Below, one piece after another: positions 5,629-33,292 of a DNA stretch of 55,813 bases (its first letter is position 1; each line of letters opens with the position of its first letter). This DNA is from Candidatus Altimarinota bacterium. Its GTDB lineage: Bacteria; Patescibacteriota; Gracilibacteria; JAHISY01. The notes below the pieces were generated by a model, which saw only the letters and a list, made by a program, of their open reading frames with translations, made no database searches and had not been told where the DNA came from. The DNA lies in contig JAIPGZ010000006.1 of NCBI GenBank assembly GCA_021735425.1, positions 1 through 55,813 of the forward strand, written 5' to 3'. Position numbers and translations under genes: made by a program.

Positions 5629-8319
5629 ATGGCTGAAAATCAAAATACAAACAATTCGCAAGTTTCCGCAAGTTCGGCTGTCGTCGCTGGGGATGTTGTT
5701 GCGCGAAAAACTTCTGCGGAGATTGAAGCGGCTAGCCATAAAGCGGACTCCCAGTCTTTACCAGAAAAAACCGAAACACTTTTTAAACCAATTCCGAAAG
5801 AAGATTCAAAGCCAAGCGAGCAGTCGGCGGTGGCTCCTAAAGTTCAACTTAAAGAAGTCCAACCCAAGCCAGTCGCGAAAATTGCTCCGGTGGTTCCCAA
5901 AATTTCATCGGTTGTGCCGACAATTGCTCCCAAAGTAGCTGCGCCACTTCCGCAAAATTCAGCTCAAATGGCTTCAGCGATTGGTCTGACTTCGGCTCAA
6001 ATTGAAAAGCAATCAGGGAAGACAACGATTCCAAAAGTTGGCGAACAGCTGAAGGTTGCCCCTAAAAACCAATTCAAACCGGTCGTCAAAACTGCGCCGG
6101 TGCCCACTAAAATTACACCGACTTCAAAAGTTACGCCGGCGACAAGCGACACTACCGCTTCAAAATTAGTCTCCAAAATTTCATCTATTTTTAAAGCTAA
6201 GCCAGCGACTGCTGTCGCGTCAGTTATGCCAGCTCAGCCAAAGACAGCCAGAGAGATTGAAAGGCAAGCTGCGATTCAAAAAATTTCTGCCAAAAATCCA
6301 GGAGCTTCTCCAAAGATTTTACCGGTAGTCGGGGCTTCACCAAAACCACCAGTTGTTGCTAAGTCGAAAATTAGCACTCCCAAAACAATCCAAGACAGAA
6401 CTATCGGAGATCAATTCATCAATCACAATCAAATTGCGACCGGTGATTTCATCAACAAACTTTTTGGTCGAAAGAAAAATATGAGTTCAGAAAATTCCGC
6501 GGCGGGCTCTCTGCCTCCCGAAAAAGAAACGTTGCAACAACAGTTGGCCGAAGCTGAGAAAATTTACCAGCAAGGATTAGCCAGCGTGCGAGATTTAATC
6601 TCGCCATCTTCTTTTGAAATCCATTATGACCATCTTTCGCTGTCGGGAGTTTTTGCTCGCAGCTTTTTTGTTTATGCCTATCCGCGTTTTCTCGAAACAA
6701 ACTGGATGAGTCCGATTATCAATTTCGACGCGACGGTTGATGTTTCCCAATTTATTTACCCGATTGCCTCGGATGAAATTATGGGCATTCTCAAAAAGAA
6801 AGTCGCGCAAATTCAGTCTTCGATTACAATGAGTCAGGAGAAGGGCAATGTTCGCGACCCGCAATTAGAAACCGCCTTAGAAGATGCCGAATCTCTTCGC
6901 ACCGACTTACAGCGCGGTCAGGAAAAGTTTTTTCAATTCGGAATGTATTTCACGGTTTATGCCGAAGATTTGAAAAAACTGGAGGCGACCACGAAGATTA
7001 TCGAAAACCAATTGGGTGGAAAATTGATTCTCACCAAGCGCGCCGACATTCAAGGTGAGCACGCTTTTAACTCCACTCTTCCGCTTTGTCTCGACGAGAT
7101 CGAAATTCAGCGCAACATGAATACTTCGCCGCTTTCAACGACTTTTCCTTTTATCTCGTCTTCGCTCGCGACCGATGAGGGTATTCTTTACGGACTCAAT
7201 CGTCACAATAATTCTCTCATTATTTTCGATCGCTTCAAGCTACCGAATGCCAATTCTTGTGTTTTCGCCTCTTCTGGTGCGGGCAAATCTTACGCCGTCA
7301 AGTTGGAGTTACTGCGGCAGGCGATGCTCGGCACAGATGTAATCATTATCGACCCAGAAAACGAATATAAGGCTCTCACTGAAACTGTTGGCGGGACTTA
7401 TATAAATATGAGTCTTAATTCTGAACAACGCATCAATCCTTTTGACCTACCACAGTCTTTCGAAGGAGAAGACTTGAAACCGGGGGATTTACTTCGCGAA
7501 AATATTATCAGTCTGACAGGCTTGATGAGATTACTGCTTGGCGAAATGAGTTCGGCAGAAGAGGCTTTGGTTGATAAAGCTTTAATCGATACCTACGCCG
7601 TGCGTGGCATCACGCTGGGGCTGCAAGATCCGAGTGGCATGCCGATGCCGACTATGGAGGATTTTCATTCGGTGCTGTCCTCGATGAAAGGGGCGGAAGA
7701 TTTGGCGCAGAGATTACAAAAATATACGACTGGTACTTTTGGTGGGATTTTTAATAAAGAAACAAATGTTAATTTGGGCAGTGGTCTGATCGCCTTTTGT
7801 ATTCGAGATTTGGAAGACGAATTGCGTCCGTCGGCGATGTTTATTCTTTTGAATTATATTTGGAATCGGGTTCGCTCGGAATTGAAAAAAAGAATTCTGG
7901 TTGTCGACGAGGCGTGGATTATGATGCAACACGAAGATGCTGCGAAGTTCCTTTTTGGTTTAGTTAAAAGGGCGAGAAAATATTACCTTGGAGTCACGAC
8001 GATTACTCAAGACGTGGAAGACTTTCTCGGCAGCAAATATGGTCGTCCGATTGTGACTAATGCCTCGATGCAATTGTTGCTCAAGCAGGCGCCGAGCTCG
8101 ATGGATGTTTTGCAAAAGACTTTTAACCTGACCGAGGGTGAGAAATATATGTTGTTAAATTCGGGCGTCGGACAGGGTCTTTTCTTCGCCGACAGCAAAC
8201 ATGTGGCGGTGCAGGTGATTGCTTCGTATTCCGAGAATCAGATTGTCACCACGAACCCGGAGGAGGTTTTGAATCAACGTGATGACGCATTCGAAGCAGC
8301 TTCTAAGAAAGATGCGTAA
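5629..8319 (+). CDS. VirB4-family T4SS/conjugation-like ATPase with long disordered N-terminus
   Basis: An 896-aa protein. Residues about 1-280 are low-complexity Ala/Pro/Lys/Ser sequence with repeated K-x-A-P and P-K-x-x-P steps and no predicted fold. Residues about 290-896 are a VirB4/TraC-like secretion ATPase with Walker A ASSGAGKSYAVK near residue 550, Walker B ILVVDEAWIMM near 755 and an ITQDVEDFL segment after it. VirB4 energises pilus assembly or DNA/protein transfer at the inner membrane. No other T4SS gene is adjacent; a VirB2-like protein lies at 44.3 kb. The start follows AACCTATTTCAA; there is no SD. Confidence 0.88.
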   Translation: MAENQNTNNSQVSASSAVVAGDVVARKTSAEIEAASHKADSQSLPEKTETLFKPIPKEDSKPSEQSAVAPKVQLKEVQPKPVAKIAPVVPKISSVVPTIAPKVAAPLPQNSAQMASAIGLTSAQIEKQSGKTTIPKVGEQLKVAPKNQFKPVVKTAPVPTKITPTSKVTPATSDTTASKLVSKISSIFKAKPATAVASVMPAQPKTAREIERQAAIQKISAKNPGASPKILPVVGASPKPPVVAKSKISTPKTIQDRTIGDQFINHNQIATGDFINKLFGRKKNMSSENSAAGSLPPEKETLQQQLAEAEKIYQQGLASVRDLISPSSFEIHYDHLSLSGVFARSFFVYAYPRFLETNWMSPIINFDATVDVSQFIYPIASDEIMGILKKKVAQIQSSITMSQEKGNVRDPQLETALEDAESLRTDLQRGQEKFFQFGMYFTVYAEDLKKLEATTKIIENQLGGKLILTKRADIQGEHAFNSTLPLCLDEIEIQRNMNTSPLSTTFPFISSSLATDEGILYGLNRHNNSLIIFDRFKLPNANSCVFASSGAGKSYAVKLELLRQAMLGTDVIIIDPENEYKALTETVGGTYINMSLNSEQRINPFDLPQSFEGEDLKPGDLLRENIISLTGLMRLLLGEMSSAEEALVDKALIDTYAVRGITLGLQDPSGMPMPTMEDFHSVLSSMKGAEDLAQRLQKYTTGTFGGIFNKETNVNLGSGLIAFCIRDLEDELRPSAMFILLNYIWNRVRSELKKRILVVDEAWIMMQHEDAAKFLFGLVKRARKYYLGVTTITQDVEDFLGSKYGRPIVTNASMQLLLKQAPSSMDVLQKTFNLTEGEKYMLLNSGVGQGLFFADSKHVAVQVIASYSENQIVTTNPEEVLNQRDDAFEAASKKDA

Positions 8320-20090: not shown

Positions 20091-23000
20091 TTATTTTGTG
20101 GGCTGAGCGTAGTCAGGGAGGAGTTCTTTGAGAATCTTTTTTTTGCCCGCGAAAATTTCGCTGAATTTTCCCATATTTGTGTAAATATCAAGCTTCTCGA
20201 TTAGTTTCTTTTTTGTCGCGACATAAAAATTAAAAACATCAATTTTTTTAGAGCTCATTTTTTTGAGTGTCGTGCTGACTCGCTCTTGTCCGAGTGGATC
20301 GAGATGATTGGCGAGAGCGATGTCGGTCTCGACGAGTATTTTTTTCAAATCAGTCATCTCCAAACTTTGGCGCGCAAGTTTTATTTTAACGATGTCGCCG
20401 AATGTCTCACCGCGTTGTAATTTAGTCCATTTTTCGTCAATAATTTCTCTTTCGAGTAGAACAGCTTTGGTTTTTGCTTGTTTGATTTGAGTCTCTAGCA
20501 CGCGAATTGTGGAATCGAACATTTCGAGATCTCTTTTAAAAGCACCTTTAAAATTTTTATATTTCACTTTTGTTTCTTCGAGATATTTAATCTTGCCTTC
20601 CCATTTCGTGGTGTCGTTTTTTGAGCTTTGAATTTCTTTTTCGAGATATTGATTCCAGCTCGCGACATCTTGCCTGTCGTGCTGAAAATATTGTTCTGTG
20701 CTTCCTGCGATACTATATTTTGCGCGATGAGCTGTTTCCCCAAAATAGGTGAGTGCGTTGTGCCCTTTGGCGAGTTTATCTAGTCCAGGAATTTTTTCAG
20801 CCAAAGGGTCGATAACATTATTGAAAGGATCAATCACCGAGAGTGCATCGCCCAAAGCGTGCCGAGCGGTGTTCGATTTTGCATTTCCAATGGCTCGGAT
20901 ATCGGTTTCAAAATAAAATTTGGAAGCATCGTTTAATTTGTCGAACGTCCATTCGCTTGCCGCGTCGAATCCTTCTTTTCCGAGAATTATTGTGCCGATG
21001 CCGGCGCCCATTCCTAATAAAAGTTTGACATAAGGCGGAACGGGAGTTTTGCTGGCGACATTAAATGCTGCCGAAAACGCGGTGAGATAAATAGATTGTT
21101 GGATGATTGTTTTTTCAGGATTAGGAGAGTTGGCGATGTCCTCCAAGATGGATAAAGCGACTACTGCACCGACGGCTTTTTTTAAGACACTTCTCAGAAC
21201 TTGAATTTTACTTCGAGGAACTTTTAATTTTTCTGTGAGAATTGTTTCGGTTTTTGGATCGATTTCCAATTTTGGTTTTTTTACAACTTCGAGATGAGGT
21301 TTTTTTATTGGTTCAGGTTGTGGTTCAACTTTTATTTGCTGAGTTGGACGGAGCTGGGTTTGAGTTTTTGGCGCCCTTCGTGCTTTTTCTTCCGCCAAGT
21401 CGATTACTTTTGGGTTTTTGGGTTTTGGTGGAGTTTCTGTTTTGATGGGGGAAGGTGTTGTTTTGGAGTTTTTCGTAGGTTTACTATTTTTTGTGGTGAA
21501 ATCTTTCGCTTCTGCTAATTCTTTACTCAAACGCGCTTTAATTTTTTCGTCACTAATTTGGCTTATTTTGGCGGCGGCTTGTTTATGGGTGCTTTCGTGT
21601 TTCGTCAAAATTTCTTCGATTTTTTTTGTGTCCATCCAGCCGATTGATTCTTGGTAGATTGTTTTCAATAATTCAGTGCGTCGAATCGCGATCTTAATTT
21701 CCTCGATGTATTTTGTTTGTTTTCTGAGTCCGCCGGCAGTTTTGATCCATCTCGCCGGTTTTCCGTAAATAGATTCGGAAATATTGAGTGCGCGGAGCTG
21801 CGTGCGCGCACGAAAAGCGCGGACGATTTCGCCACCGTGATTTGCGATACTCAGTCCCTTTAAGGTATTTTTTGGTAGTTCGTAAAATGGTGCGACTGCG
21901 CCGCGTGCACCGCCGACGAGTGCGTCGAGAGGTGTGGCGGTGATGCGCAGTGCGCCCTTTCCGATTCTTTTTAGGGAAAATTTGTGCACGGTTTTTGTCA
22001 TCGCCGCTCCACCAGCTTCTCCGGGAACGACAATTTTAGTTTCTGTGAGACCGGTGCCTTGTATCATCATCCAGCTACCCTTAATTCCGCCTTTCGCTGC
22101 TCCAGCCGCTGCTCCAGCCGCCACGAGATATTTGCCGCCGTGATCGAGATAAATATCCGAATACAATTTAGTCAATTCCAAAAGTTTCGAAGTTTCGACA
22201 GTTTCTCCGTTTGTGATTCGTTTTTCGAGATCATCCCATTTTTTGTTTAATGCGGCTTGCATTCCTTCGACGATAGCCAAGGATTTTGGTAGTACCACTC
22301 GTACGGCTTGCACTCCGGCACCGACAATTGGAATGTAAAAATAGGCCATACCCTCGGCACCATCGATTACGACTTCACCGATACTTTTAAAAGAATCAAC
22401 AAAATTCTCCGGGTTGGGATGATCAGCTATTGCAGTAAGAACGGTGATAGCCTGTTCGATTTTAATTTTTAAATCTTCTTGTTGCTCGGGAGTCAGCTCG
22501 GCTTGTCGCTCATCAAATGATTTTTTCTCATCAATAGTCAGTCCATCCAACTTGAGATTTTTATCTTTAATGGTTTTTAAAACATCATTTAGTGTCGTTG
22601 TTGGATCAATTTGGATTGCTTTTTCAATAGTTGCTTTATTTCTGTCTAACAAAATTCGCAATCGTTCCATTTTCATGTAGCCCTCAGTGTTGATATTGAG
22701 CAGACTGGCTGGTCCCGAAAAAACATTTGCAGTAGCTCCGGACATTGCACCTTTCCACGATCCATCGATAATCGTTTGGTATTTCCATGTGCCGACTTGG
22801 GCTAGTTCTTCAGCTGTAAAAAAATCTAAGGCAGAACCTTGCTCAGTCGGTCCTTTATGGATTGGTTTTGGCACTTCGCCAAAATTCAAAGGATTATATT
22901 TTTGTAAGCTTTCAGGTAGCCATTTTTTAGGTATATTTAGGCTAGTCAGCTTTTTGATAAATTCTCGGACATTCTCGTTACTCATGCCTGCTGCCAAGAC

Positions 23001-23606
23001 CATTATTCCTAAGGCACCCTTAACAGTTCCGCCGATTCGTTCGCTCCAAGTTTTTTCTTTCCCGAAAATATTTTTAAGTTGATGGTAAATAAAGAGAGTC
23101 GCACCAGCAGCGACTGCTATTCCAATTGTCCACGCTGCCACGGGGTGTTCTTTAGCAAAACGACTGAGCGTAGTTTTTGATTTTTCTTTGTTTGATGCGC
23201 TATCGTATTCTCTTGCTGTGGCTGTGGCTTCTCTCGCTAATTTCCAAATTGCTGGCCAGTCTTTTTCAATTTCAGCCTGATTTTGTGGATTTAAAGTTTT
23301 CCAAAAATCTGGGAAAATGTCTTTCAAATTTTCTAATTTCAACTCATTGATTTTAGGGTCGCTGTGGAGTTTTTCAGCAATTAGAACGACAAGCTCCATT
23401 TCTTTCATAACGGGCTGCTGCAGACTCTCGATAATTTCTTGCAGGTGTTGGATTTCAGCATTTTGGACATTCTGTCTTAGCCTTATTTTTTCTTCAATTT
23501 TCTTAAGGGCAGAATCGATTTTCTTTTCTTGCTCAGGAGTGAGATTGTTTCTCAAAAGCTCAACTTCTTGTTTTTTTCGATTTAGTATTTCTACCGTTGA
23601 AGCCAT
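20091..23606 (-). CDS. 1171-aa protein of unknown function with membrane segments and coiled coils
   Basis: I do not recognise this protein. The N-terminal 100 residues are coiled coil. Hydrophobic segments lie at about 156-176 (AAWTIGIAVAAGATLFIYHQL) and 192-207, with several weaker Gly/Ala-rich ones later (for example GGKYLVAAGAAAGAAKGG and LLLGMGAGIGTIILG). A Pro/Lys-rich linker spans about 705-790. The C-terminal 250 residues are again strongly helical and charged. There is no signal peptide at the N-terminus. It ends 1 bp from the asd stop (convergent). Length, Ala/Gly stretches and coiled coils recall scaffold or large secreted proteins, but nothing assigns a role. Confidence 0.8.
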   Translation of the reverse strand: MASTVEILNRKKQEVELLRNNLTPEQEKKIDSALKKIEEKIRLRQNVQNAEIQHLQEIIESLQQPVMKEMELVVLIAEKLHSDPKINELKLENLKDIFPDFWKTLNPQNQAEIEKDWPAIWKLAREATATAREYDSASNKEKSKTTLSRFAKEHPVAAWTIGIAVAAGATLFIYHQLKNIFGKEKTWSERIGGTVKGALGIMVLAAGMSNENVREFIKKLTSLNIPKKWLPESLQKYNPLNFGEVPKPIHKGPTEQGSALDFFTAEELAQVGTWKYQTIIDGSWKGAMSGATANVFSGPASLLNINTEGYMKMERLRILLDRNKATIEKAIQIDPTTTLNDVLKTIKDKNLKLDGLTIDEKKSFDERQAELTPEQQEDLKIKIEQAITVLTAIADHPNPENFVDSFKSIGEVVIDGAEGMAYFYIPIVGAGVQAVRVVLPKSLAIVEGMQAALNKKWDDLEKRITNGETVETSKLLELTKLYSDIYLDHGGKYLVAAGAAAGAAKGGIKGSWMMIQGTGLTETKIVVPGEAGGAAMTKTVHKFSLKRIGKGALRITATPLDALVGGARGAVAPFYELPKNTLKGLSIANHGGEIVRAFRARTQLRALNISESIYGKPARWIKTAGGLRKQTKYIEEIKIAIRRTELLKTIYQESIGWMDTKKIEEILTKHESTHKQAAAKISQISDEKIKARLSKELAEAKDFTTKNSKPTKNSKTTPSPIKTETPPKPKNPKVIDLAEEKARRAPKTQTQLRPTQQIKVEPQPEPIKKPHLEVVKKPKLEIDPKTETILTEKLKVPRSKIQVLRSVLKKAVGAVVALSILEDIANSPNPEKTIIQQSIYLTAFSAAFNVASKTPVPPYVKLLLGMGAGIGTIILGKEGFDAASEWTFDKLNDASKFYFETDIRAIGNAKSNTARHALGDALSVIDPFNNVIDPLAEKIPGLDKLAKGHNALTYFGETAHRAKYSIAGSTEQYFQHDRQDVASWNQYLEKEIQSSKNDTTKWEGKIKYLEETKVKYKNFKGAFKRDLEMFDSTIRVLETQIKQAKTKAVLLEREIIDEKWTKLQRGETFGDIVKIKLARQSLEMTDLKKILVETDIALANHLDPLGQERVSTTLKKMSSKKIDVFNFYVATKKKLIEKLDIYTNMGKFSEIFAGKKKILKELLPDYAQPTK

Positions 23607-28718: not shown

Positions 28719-30137
28719 TTACAGTCCCATCTCTTTTTTGACGGAATTGATTTTGCGGACGAGAGTGGCGTCTTTTTGGAGGTCGGCGGTGATTTTGCGG
28801 ACGGAATGGAGGACGGTCGAATGATCTTTTTGGAAATTTTGGGCAATCTCGGTGAGGCTACAGCCGAGGATCTCGCGGGCGAGATACATCGTGATTTGGC
28901 GCGCGACCTGAAATTCTTTTTTGCGGGAAGTGCCGCAAATTTCTGCGATGGGAAGATCGAAATGTTTCGAGACTAGCTCGATTAATTCGGCGGGAGTTTG
29001 GACGGAGATTTCAGGAGAATTTTCAGGGAGGCCTAAGACGCGCTCTTTTTTATTGACCTTTTCAAGCATCTTGCCGAGCTCGCGGACAGTTGGTTGAATC
29101 TTAAGAAGCTCAGTTTGAGCGATTGACCAAGCGAGCGCTGATTCAAGCGAGCGGACCGAGTCGGAAACATTCATCGCGATAAATTCGAGGATGTCGGGAT
29201 CGAGAATTGCACGTCGTTCTTGAGTCTTGGATTTGAGAATCTCGAGCCGTGATTGGAAACTGGGCTGTTCGATTTCGCAGACTAGGCCCCAAGTCAGTCG
29301 GCTGCGGAGGCGATCCATTACTTCGGTTAGTTCGCTCGGCGGACGATCGGAAGTGAAGACAAGCTGCTTACCTTTTTCGTGAAGGTCGTTAAATATATTA
29401 AAAAGTTCGATTTGGGTTTTGTCGCGATTTTCGAGGAATTGGACATCGTCAAAAAGCAGGACATCGATATCGCGAAATTTCTTTTTGAATTCATCAGCCT
29501 GAAATTTTTTGGAGGCGGCGACAAATTCGCGGGTGAATATTTCGGATGTTGTGAAAGCAACGATTTTGTTGGGGTCGTTGGTGAGAACTTCATGACCAAT
29601 CGCAGAGAGGAGGTGAGTTTTGCCGAGTCCGACTCCGCCGTAAATCACGAGAGGGTTGTATGTCTGTCCAGGTAGGCGCGCGACGGAAAGTGCGGCGGCG
29701 TGGGCAAGACGATTTTCATCGCCTGGCACAAAATTCGCGAGAGTGTAACGCGGATTAAGCTTGGCGGAGAGGATGCCCGACCTAGTCAAAATGACTTCCT
29801 CGTGACCGCGTGCTTTGTAAACCTTTTTGTCTCCTGGTTTAGCGAAGACGGCACGAAGGTCAATTGTTCGAGGATCGATTCCGTCGCCCAGTGCTGCGTC
29901 GACCTCAATCTCGACTTCTTTAATTTTAGAATTTTCTTCTTCCGCGGCTTGGAGAATCTTGAGGGCGTATTTTTGGACAATCCAATCACGCGCAAAATTG
30001 GTGGGGACACCGACCACTAGAGTTTCGTTTTCAATAGTGAGGGCGGCGGTGTTTTGGAACCAGGTTAGAAATTGAGATTTTGAAATCGTCGGTTCAAGGC
30101 GGCGGAGAATCGAAAGCCAGAAATTTTTGTAGTCCAC
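28719..30137 (-). CDS. dnaA: Chromosomal replication initiator DnaA
   Basis: Opens the replication origin. 472 aa with all four domains: N-terminal domain I (FWLSILRRLEPTISKSQFLTWF), linker, AAA+ domain III with Walker A YGGVGLGKTHLLSA and Walker B DVLLFDDVQFL. Domain IV has the DNA-binding signature CGTSRKKEFQVARQITMYLAREI followed by FQKDHSTVLHSVRKI. It begins a minus-strand block and faces away from the plus-strand block starting at 30339. Confidence 0.97.
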   Translation of the reverse strand: MDYKNFWLSILRRLEPTISKSQFLTWFQNTAALTIENETLVVGVPTNFARDWIVQKYALKILQAAEEENSKIKEVEIEVDAALGDGIDPRTIDLRAVFAKPGDKKVYKARGHEEVILTRSGILSAKLNPRYTLANFVPGDENRLAHAAALSVARLPGQTYNPLVIYGGVGLGKTHLLSAIGHEVLTNDPNKIVAFTTSEIFTREFVAASKKFQADEFKKKFRDIDVLLFDDVQFLENRDKTQIELFNIFNDLHEKGKQLVFTSDRPPSELTEVMDRLRSRLTWGLVCEIEQPSFQSRLEILKSKTQERRAILDPDILEFIAMNVSDSVRSLESALAWSIAQTELLKIQPTVRELGKMLEKVNKKERVLGLPENSPEISVQTPAELIELVSKHFDLPIAEICGTSRKKEFQVARQITMYLAREILGCSLTEIAQNFQKDHSTVLHSVRKITADLQKDATLVRKINSVKKEMGL

Positions 30138-30338: not shown

Positions 30339-32429
30339 ATGCAAGAAATTGAGTTTGTGGCTTTAGATTGCGAAACAACCGGTCTTGATTGCGAGAGAGA
30401 TAACATCATCGAGCTAGGGGCTGTCAATTTTTCACTCTCAGAAAATCTGACGAGTTTTGATTCACTTTTCCATTCTCCGACGAGAATTCCGCAATTTGTC
30501 GAGCGCCTGACTGGTATCCAAAACTCTGATTTGGAGAGTGCGCCGCAATTCGCTGAGAAGTGCGAAGAAGTTCGAAAATTCTGCGAGGGTAAAGTTTTGC
30601 TCGGGCACAATCTTCCTTTTGATCTCGATTTTATCTCTGCCGCTGGTTTAGATTTACACCAAAATTCTGGGCTCGATACTTTCAAAATTGCCGGCTTGGT
30701 GCTCCCGCGGGGCGAGTCACTTTCGCTCGAAAATCTTTCGCAAAAATTTCAAATTCACCACGCAGAAGCGCATCGTGCTTTGGCTGATGCCGAGGCGACG
30801 CGAGATTTATTGCGAGTTTTGATTGCACTCGCCAAAAGTTTTTCCCCCGAAAAATGGGAGCGAATCGCGAATTTGAATTCCAAAAAAAGTTGGGTGCAAG
30901 ATTTCGCTAAATTAGTTTTGGACAGTGATATTCAGGTCAAAAAATACGAGGCTGAAATTTCAGAAAATCTAGAAGTGAAGAATGATGTTGTCGAAAAGCT
31001 TTCCGTCGAATTTTCCGGTGCTCCAAAAATTATCGAAATTGCTGCTAGTCCGGCTGAGGTTTTCGCGGCAGCAGAAAGATTGAACCAGCCGACGGCACTT
31101 TTTTTCGGCAGTGAATTTGAAGTTCGGCAGCTTGGTGTGCCGAAAATTATTCCAGCTAAAAATTTCGTCGATTCTGCTAAGTTGGAAAATTTTTTGACTA
31201 AAAATTTGTCGAATTCGGAAATCTCGCTCGCGGCAAAATTAATCCTCCACTCTGATAAAACTCTGCCAGAGCTGAATCTCACGCGGGCAGAAGATTTTCT
31301 TTCAGACTTTGTCACTGCGGAAAAAATTCCACAGAATCTAGATTTTAAAGTAATTGTCTCGACGCACGTCGCGCTACCAGAGTTCCAAGATTCAAATCGC
31401 CTCAAAATTATTGTTGACGCTGTTGCTCTACCAGCAAACTTGTCTTGCCAGAATTCTCTCACTTTGGATTTTCCGACGCTGGAAGAATTGCTGCCGCAAT
31501 ATTCTGATAAAATTCAGATTTGGTGGGGGCTACTGGGACTACTTTTTCGCGAAGCTGCTCCGAAGTTTGGACGGCTGAATTTGGCGGAGGCGGGTGGGTT
31601 GCCGAGTTTTTCGAAAGTTATCGAGGCGGGTCGGAATTTGCTCGCCGAAATTTCCGAGTTGCTTCCGTCAAAAGTTTTCGTTGGTCTCCAAAATTTGCTC
31701 TCTGACTCGCCTGATTTTTTGCGAAGTATTCGTTCGAATTTCGCGAACGAAATCATACTCGCGATTGAGCCACTCAATTTCGCGCTACCCGACTTGTCCG
31801 ACTCAATTTTGCTCGATGCGGCAGCGGATGCTGGGGACGATTTCCATTTTGCCAAAAGGCTGCTCCAATTGCCTGAAATTGTCGCGACTACATCGATTAC
31901 TACCAAAGATGAATTACCTCGTTTGCTAGTCGCTGACGATGCTCCCGATCCGGCGACCCCGCAATTTTTTCCCGTGGTGGAAAAATTTCTCCTCAAAAGT
32001 CTTCCCCAATTTTCAGGAGTGACGGCGGTCGTTTTTCCCAATCGAATGGAGGCGGGCAATTTCACCGACCGGGCGACGGCGGAGTTAGATTTCCCAATTT
32101 TCTTTCGCAAAATCCCCTCATCGCAAAAATTAGCTGTTTTCGAAAAGGCGATGGTGATTCTCACGACTGGCAGTCGATTTTTTCCGTCGAATTTAAAAAA
32201 TTTCATCAGCGTGAAGCTGCCTTTTATTGTTCGCGATGGTGCGGATTGGGAATCGGAGACTTTGCCGGCGACAGTGCTGCGTTTCAAAAAAATGTGGGCG
32301 AATTTTGCGAAATCTCCGCTGGCTGAAAAATTTGTCGTTCTAGACCCTCGTCTGCTTGGTAAACCTTACGGTGGGAATTTTCTGAAAGCGATTCCGCAAA
32401 AATTTGAGGGTGTTAAAATTTCGGGGTGA
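30339..32429 (+). CDS. DnaQ-like 3'-5' exonuclease fused to a degenerate DinG-like helicase region
   Basis: 696 aa. Residues 1-180 are an intact DEDDh exonuclease: Asp10 and Glu12 in ALDCETTGLD, Asp in LGHNLPFDLDFI, His and Asp in EAHRALADAEAT. The remaining 500 residues follow the layout of DinG helicases but lack their motifs. There is no P-loop, the DEAH position reads IIVDAVALPANL (about 355-367), and the strand before the motif V region reads FFPSNLKNFISVKLPFIV. The C-terminus keeps LPATVLRFKKMWANF and YGGNFLKAIP without the GRxIR arginines. So it is probably a nuclease with an inactive structural helicase fold. The downstream ftsQ GTG overlaps its stop. Confidence 0.75.
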   Translation: MQEIEFVALDCETTGLDCERDNIIELGAVNFSLSENLTSFDSLFHSPTRIPQFVERLTGIQNSDLESAPQFAEKCEEVRKFCEGKVLLGHNLPFDLDFISAAGLDLHQNSGLDTFKIAGLVLPRGESLSLENLSQKFQIHHAEAHRALADAEATRDLLRVLIALAKSFSPEKWERIANLNSKKSWVQDFAKLVLDSDIQVKKYEAEISENLEVKNDVVEKLSVEFSGAPKIIEIAASPAEVFAAAERLNQPTALFFGSEFEVRQLGVPKIIPAKNFVDSAKLENFLTKNLSNSEISLAAKLILHSDKTLPELNLTRAEDFLSDFVTAEKIPQNLDFKVIVSTHVALPEFQDSNRLKIIVDAVALPANLSCQNSLTLDFPTLEELLPQYSDKIQIWWGLLGLLFREAAPKFGRLNLAEAGGLPSFSKVIEAGRNLLAEISELLPSKVFVGLQNLLSDSPDFLRSIRSNFANEIILAIEPLNFALPDLSDSILLDAAADAGDDFHFAKRLLQLPEIVATTSITTKDELPRLLVADDAPDPATPQFFPVVEKFLLKSLPQFSGVTAVVFPNRMEAGNFTDRATAELDFPIFFRKIPSSQKLAVFEKAMVILTTGSRFFPSNLKNFISVKLPFIVRDGADWESETLPATVLRFKKMWANFAKSPLAEKFVVLDPRLLGKPYGGNFLKAIPQKFEGVKISG

Positions 32430-33292
32430 GTCCTCGGATTTCTTTTCGGCAGCGCAAAGTAAATCGCATCTTTTGTCGCATTTTTCGTCGGCGGCGGAAT
32501 CAGCATCTCGAATCACGAGTTTTTCAAGCCAAGCGTAGATTTCGAAATTTGTTTACTATTCGCCAAAAAATAATTCTTGTTGTTGGAGTTTTCGCGACTG
32601 GTAGTCTGATTGGTTTTACGAATTTTTCTGGATTTTTCAATGTTGCAAAAGTCTCAGTTGCCCGTAGCTCGCTCGATCTCCCACTCTCGGAGATTGAACT
32701 TTCGATTCGTGATTTAGCTTTGGGTAAAAATATTTTCAGTGTTGATAAAGCTTTGCTCCAAAAAGCGGTTCTCGCAATGCGCGGTGATATTTCGCGCGTC
32801 AAGATTGTCAAAAAGCTGCCGCGGGAAATTCAAGTTGAAGTTTTCAAGTTTCCTATCGTGGCGGAGGTCGGTGTCGGTAACGAAAAAATTTATCTTAACG
32901 AAAAGGGCTTCGAAGTGAAGGGGGATTTTCCCGATCGAGATACTTTGCAGTTGGTTTTAGGTGAGGAAGTCCCATTAAGCGAACAAGAGAAAGATTTTCA
33001 AAGTTCCAAGCAAATTATTTCCGAAGACTATCTCAATTTTATTCGCGAGGCGGTTTTTTATTTTGAGTCTCTGACTGATCTTAAAATTCTCAACACTAAA
33101 TATTTTCCAATCTCGCGTGAAGCGCATCTCAAAACCGAGAAGAATTTCAATATTTGGTTGGATTTGAATTACGATTTTCGCGAACAGCTTAATAAACTTG
33201 TCGTTGCGGCGGATGAATTGAAAATTGACACAAAAAAGTATGAGTACATCGATTTGCGAATTCCGGGAAAGATTTTTTATAAACCCAAATAG
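32426..33292 (+). CDS. ftsQ: Cell division protein FtsQ/DivIB
   Basis: A bitopic membrane protein of the division machinery that holds FtsB/FtsL in the septum. 288 aa: a very basic cytoplasmic tail (first 45 residues), one TM (IILVVGVFATGSLIGF, about 49-64), then a POTRA domain (FFNVAKVSVARSSLDLPLSEIE ... DISRVKIVKKLPREIQVEVFKFPIVAEV) and the FtsQ beta domain ending YEYIDLRIPGKIFYKPK. The GTG start overlaps the upstream stop (GTGA). No ftsW or mur genes are adjacent. Confidence 0.86.
   Translation: MSPRISFRQRKVNRIFCRIFRRRRNQHLESRVFQAKRRFRNLFTIRQKIILVVGVFATGSLIGFTNFSGFFNVAKVSVARSSLDLPLSEIELSIRDLALGKNIFSVDKALLQKAVLAMRGDISRVKIVKKLPREIQVEVFKFPIVAEVGVGNEKIYLNEKGFEVKGDFPDRDTLQLVLGEEVPLSEQEKDFQSSKQIISEDYLNFIREAVFYFESLTDLKILNTKYFPISREAHLKTEKNFNIWLDLNYDFREQLNKLVVAADELKIDTKKYEYIDLRIPGKIFYKPK

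Follow-up and report, generated by a model that had tools for sequence, protein, structure and literature searches.

The closest described relatives of the protein analysed here, which is encoded in a window of 55,813 nucleotides (the whole stretch of DNA under study) from a Gracilibacteria genome, are the ExoDinG enzymes of Bacillota (DinG of Staphylococcus aureus, Bacillus subtilis and Listeria monocytogenes), which likewise join an N-terminal DEDDh exonuclease to a DinG/XPD body. In these enzymes the exonuclease is independent of the ATPase, since Walker-motif mutants stay active: B. subtilis DinG K290A still degrades single-stranded DNA 3'-5' (PMC12525004) and L. monocytogenes DinG E465A retains exonuclease activity (PMC12774634). 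Wild-type B. subtilis DinG with ATP dissociates ahead of the duplex junction (PMC12525004), and the nuclease of S. aureus DinG is inhibited by elevated ATP (PMC12345164). A 2025 review of DinG-like proteins, based on representative strains per bacterial order in KEGG, distinguished ten subgroups and called the motor domains universal; a pseudo-helicase subgroup is not among the ten (PMC11981726). They include pExoDinG, which resembles the window protein in that one half of the enzyme is dead yet kept as a domain, but its dead half is the exonuclease and its helicase is retained, the reverse of the present case (PMC11981726). In the open-access literature we found no description of an ATPase-less ExoDinG in Patescibacteria. 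In RecBCD and AddAB, the subunits RecC and AddB resemble helicases of superfamily 1 but are inactive. Here too an inactive helicase fold is kept next to a nuclease, and strand handling would be common to both cases, but the fold is that of superfamily 1 (UvrD-like), the subunits are separate and the partner motors are still there. Escherichia coli exonuclease I is likewise a DEDDh nuclease, and its C-terminal domains, SH3-like and helical and not helicase-derived, hold single-stranded DNA.

The window gene (Table 1) runs from an ATG at 30339 to a TGA at 32427-32429, at the coordinates and on the strand given in the preliminary description. Its exonuclease had been called intact, and all five active-site residues (D10, E12, D95, H145 and D150) are indeed present and invariant across 40 aligned relatives, in addition to the PF00929 match. 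It is the sole PF00929 gene in each of the six genomes of its family, and Pfam profile searches of the window genome detected neither a Pol I exonuclease (PF01612) nor an RNB gene. The single DnaE found in the genome (G000:C2:33622-35349) has a strong PHP domain match. This PHP domain is a candidate built-in proofreader; since DnaE might thus proofread itself, proofreading was rejected as a necessary role of the exonuclease and is not claimed for the window protein.

Table 1. Features of the exonuclease-DinG locus, with positions in the window
Feature	Position	Strand	Detail
dnaA, divergent neighbour	28719..30137	-	context kept in the window gene's family only
CDS, DEDDh 3'-5' exonuclease + ATPase-less DinG (pseudo-helicase ExoDinG)	30339..32429	+	696 aa
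DEDDh exonuclease domain (PF00929)	30357..30806	+	residues 7-156, E 3.7e-25
Catalytic D10, E12	30366-30383	+	motif reading
Catalytic D95	30618-30632	+	motif reading
Catalytic H145, D150	30768-30788	+	motif reading
Pseudo-helicase region, predicted DinG/XPD fold	30906..32426	+	residues 190-696
Collapsed Walker A (motif I), KIIEIAASPAEVF vs EAPTGxGKT of intact relatives	31026..31064	+	alignment
Motif II site, DAVAL vs DEAH	31416..31430	+	residues 360-364
Motif III site, SILLDAAAD vs (L)TSATL	31803..31829	+	alignment
VKLPF strand, second helicase domain, DinG landmark retained	32211..32225	+	KLPF = residues 626-629
Motif VI site, KKMWANFA vs QGFGRLIR, arginine finger gone	32286..32309	+	residues 650-657
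YGGNFLKAIP, DinG C-terminal signature retained	32367..32396	+	residues 677-686
FtsQ-type POTRA protein	32426..33292	+	PF08478 E 6.6e-4, just under curated cut-off

The remaining C-terminal part had been described as a DinG outline stripped of its P-loop, DEAH and GRxIR motifs, and closer inspection agreed on each count. In an alignment of 110 sequences, APTGVGKS, DEAH, LTSATL and QGFGRLIR correspond to IA----AS, VDAV, LLDAAA and KMWANFAK in the window protein. At the Walker A site stands KIIEIAASPAEVF, from which the GxGKT loop is deleted; DAVAL aligns to motif II and KKMWANFA occupies the position of QGFGRLIR. The motif II site is variable even inside the window gene's family (VDAV, ADAV, TDAI, VGAA, ADAA and TEAL). 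By these motifs, the window protein cannot be an ATP-driven helicase of known kind, and it differs from the ExoDinG of Bacillota in lacking Walker A, DEAH, motif III and motif VI as well as in having smaller Arch and pFeS regions. The landmarks KLPF and YGxxFLxxIP are in place and conserved, and KLPF and LDxR persist across the ATPase-less members. The motifs had also been said to be lost without truncation, which is true of the reading frame and both ends but not of the length, as the protein is ~170-250 aa shorter than intact homologues of its class. This shrinkage is internal and concerns the linker, the N-terminal part of HD1, the pFeS region and the Arch. The FeS/pFeS and Arch region is present but reduced, with ~109 residues in the Arch segment vs 190 in intact homologues, and a four-Cys FeS site is ruled out in the C-terminal part because it has a single Cys (C370).

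No Pfam model covers the C-terminal 500 residues of the window protein, and the best match of the NCBIfam DinG models spans only about residues 5-216. Helicase_C_2 (PF13307) matches 25 of 40 ATPase-less proteins, the window protein not being one of them. Compared with PDB sequences, a profile of the ATPase-less C-termini detects S. aureus DinG (E 1e-30), E. coli DinG (2e-20) and XPD (4e-9), and a profile of the window gene's family alone finds DinG (E. coli) at E 0.68 only. Using hhalign, the ATPase-less C-termini match the intact ones with an E-value of 4e-64, while the window gene's family alone matches intact C-termini at 3e-6 and other ATPase-less ones at 3e-27. Since the family-only profile is weak, the fold assignment for this family depends on the structure model and on profile-profile comparison. 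The AlphaFold2 model of the window protein, for which the input alignment consisted of ATPase-less sequences only, has a pLDDT of 87.7 and a pTM of 0.82. The top Foldseek matches in PDB are two structures of S. aureus DinG (8zef/9ii8) over the full length (E 1.4e-31), followed by E. coli DinG, CasDinG and XPD, at TM-scores of 0.61-0.66 over the query and with model and motif alignments at ~20% identity; E. coli exonuclease I (1fxx) is also among the matches. A member from Doudnabacteria gave the same outcome, with S. aureus ExoDinG as the top PDB match. In the model of the window protein, the Walker A site consists of a strand (230-233), a short loop and a helix (238-246), and the phosphate-binding loop is missing. 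The C-terminal ~500 residues are accordingly modelled as a DinG/XPD fold with two RecA-like domains, in line with the preliminary description, and the structure search ruled out another fold for residues 190-696.

The full-length architecture without the motifs was found in six of the six sampled genomes of the family, the relatives being 47-63% identical, and none of the six contains internal stops. The motifs are absent from the whole family, and intact homologues are confined to other families. For the C-terminal part, dN/dS is 0.14-0.23 within the family and 0.04-0.14 in near pairs, with 0.04-0.12 for the near pairs taken from another family, which is well below 1 and indicates purifying selection. 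A recent pseudogene was therefore rejected, as the gene is full length and free of stops, lacks the motifs family-wide and is under purifying selection at its C-terminus. Neither of the two refuting conditions set out in the preliminary description, a different C-terminal fold or a recent pseudogene, was borne out. A complementing helicase paralogue was likewise rejected, as we detected no PF13307 match in the window genome or its family.

The loss extends well beyond this family. Within the class, the long DEDDh-DinG gene is devoid, or almost devoid, of ATPase motifs in f1, f2, f4, f5, f6, f7, f8, f11, f15-f20, f23 and one genome of f22 (666-852 aa), and the protein is intact in f9, f14, f21 and the other f22 genomes (868-946 aa). 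The ATPase-less form occurs in most sampled class families and in other classes of Patescibacteria, including Doudnabacteria. In the wider phylum we found it in ten or more additional families (f33, f36, f38, f46, f52, f54, f56, f65, f78, f80 and f96), with intact forms present in f32 and f41, proportions that are biased because the search profile was built from ATPase-less proteins. The f22 exception (L100, genome G065) is a very divergent ATPase-less version in a family that is otherwise intact and reads TGA as Gly, and may represent an independent loss or a transfer. Many DinG-like proteins of Patescibacteria thus cannot be helicases, which corrects their annotation, and in some of these genomes the DinG helicase profile has no further match.

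The ATPase-less genes of f4, f16, f18, f20 and f23 and the intact gene of f21 lie downstream of one carA-like gene (named by its sequence, without Pfam). This shared site argues that the ATPase-less genes are orthologues and not side copies. On a wider tree, built after the motif columns had been taken out, four or more changes between intact and ATPase-less forms are required, which we read as losses because the superfamily generally has a functional ATPase; the 58-sequence class tree is compatible with one ancient loss. Both trees were made quickly and contain long branches. A single ancient loss was rejected on the basis of the wider tree, though the class tree permits it.

Different stages of decay were seen in the Chloroflexota proteins L250, L246, L244, L212 and L227. 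The first two are part-decayed (AMPGTGRS, DEAH and QGFDRLIR in L250; AGIGRT, DEVN and QGFDKLIR in L246), and no motif is left in the Ktedonobacteria proteins L212 and L227. Seemingly, the decay in Chloroflexota is independent of the losses in Patescibacteria. Family f65 is also intermediate, with AGPGVGRY, DEAQ and QVFQQLIK. Decay intermediates thus remain visible, in f65 and, with GxGRS, DEAH and QGFDRLIR, in one Chloroflexota protein. Several times, it appears, a superfamily 2 helicase of XPD type followed the path of RecC and AddB. Whether ExoDinG needs its helicase half as a motor, which is debated, becomes testable by comparison and mutagenesis.

From the intact nuclease residues, the predicted DinG fold, the family-wide motif loss, the purifying selection, the orthology and the repeated loss, we consider it reasonably probable that the window protein is an ATP-independent 3'-5' exonuclease, in which a pseudo-helicase derived from ExoDinG grips and positions the single strand; what we infer are the catalysis, the grip on the strand, the substrate and the pathway. 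The ancestor would be an ExoDinG, with a DEDDh exonuclease joined to a helicase of XPD type, and the two RecA-like domains of this helicase would persist as a pseudo-helicase incapable of the usual binding and hydrolysis of ATP. This pseudo-helicase would most likely hold and orient single strands and junctions so that the 3' end reaches the nuclease, much as RecC, AddB or the C-terminal domains of exonuclease I do for their own nucleases, and the substrate would be single-stranded nucleic acid ends, degraded 3'-5'. Without the ATPase, ATP would no longer inhibit the nuclease or drive its dissociation. Most simply, the motor would have been abandoned and the body retained as a passive strand guide; the reuse as a binding scaffold proposed in the preliminary description is likewise the interpretation that we favour. 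The C-terminal part is mildly acidic in the window gene's family (mean pI 5.4) and thus shows no clear sign of a strongly basic groove, which counts against strand holding.

In family f5, the C-terminus ends exactly, or within one residue, on Q[LM]x[LM][FL] in 12 of 12 genera (L057, L062, L065, L066, L117, L119, L132, L134-L136, L139 and L142), with variants such as QLSLF, QLKLF, QLSMF and QMALL, where chance would give 0.27% per sequence within the final 20 residues. B. subtilis PolC binds the clamp through a C-terminal QLSLF (PMC12309361), and the f5 enzyme, whose tail matches this motif, probably works at the sliding clamp. The tail is missing from the window gene's family and from every other sequence examined. 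More broadly, we tentatively suggest, as a possibility short of an even chance, that ExoDinG was repeatedly converted, in Patescibacteria and separately in Chloroflexota, to an ATP-free exonuclease with a strand guide, in some lineages clamp-tethered and replication-linked and in others the sole PF00929 enzyme.

The f5 tails, together with conserved blocks such as KIQIWWGLLGLLFREAAP in the window gene's family, would also fit a dead helicase that is mainly a protein-binding platform, docking the exonuclease onto the replisome or some other machine, with strand contact being secondary. However, the f5 motif is on a tail and not on the pseudo-helicase, the window gene's family has no such tail, and the persistence of KLPF and LDxR suggests that the old core is maintained, so that we regard this explanation as unlikely. 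A main role as an RNA 3' exonuclease, in trimming of precursor rRNA or RNA quality control with the pseudo-helicase reading RNA stems, has some appeal in view of L. monocytogenes DinG, which removes unprocessed rRNA with an exonuclease independent of its ATPase motif (PMC12774634), and in view of the lack of an RNB exoribonuclease and of a second PF00929 gene in the window genome. It is quite improbable, as the f5 clamp motif points to DNA and B. subtilis DinG cuts linear ssRNA only when complexed with Mn2+ (PMC12525004).

The reduced length, and a C-terminal part whose evolution in the window gene's family is somewhat faster than that of the exonuclease, might instead indicate a leftover on its way out, whose only function is folding support. 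In ATPase-less proteins the helicase half is the less conserved one; in two pairs of intact proteins it is as conserved as the exonuclease or more so. With dN/dS far under 1, full length throughout the family and an ATPase-less state that persists over several classes, we consider such a leftover very unlikely. Nucleotide binding or hydrolysis through a new non-canonical site is scarcely credible, given that none of motifs I, II, III and VI survives and that their replacements differ between lineages.

With regard to gene context, the divergent dnaA pointed out in the preliminary description is real and was found beside the gene in four of four same-family relatives with flanking sequence, but in none of the other families compared, and it therefore does not define the system. 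A neighbourhood common across families was rejected, as dnaA is not shared and a carA-like and uvrB-like context occurs in some families only. Matches to the DnaA box TTATNCACA in the window (30 vs 33 expected) are not above chance and the GC skew has no clear inflection at dnaA, hence we make no claim of a replication origin. The FtsQ-type gene has a proposed GTG start that shares bases with the TGA ending the exonuclease gene (GTGA), which suggests that the two form a single operon in the window gene's family. Elsewhere, the window contains a 1171-aa ORF without Pfam matches (20094-23606, - strand) and an 896-aa TraG/VirB4-type P-loop ATPase (5629-8316, + strand), likely a component of a type IV secretion system or pilus.
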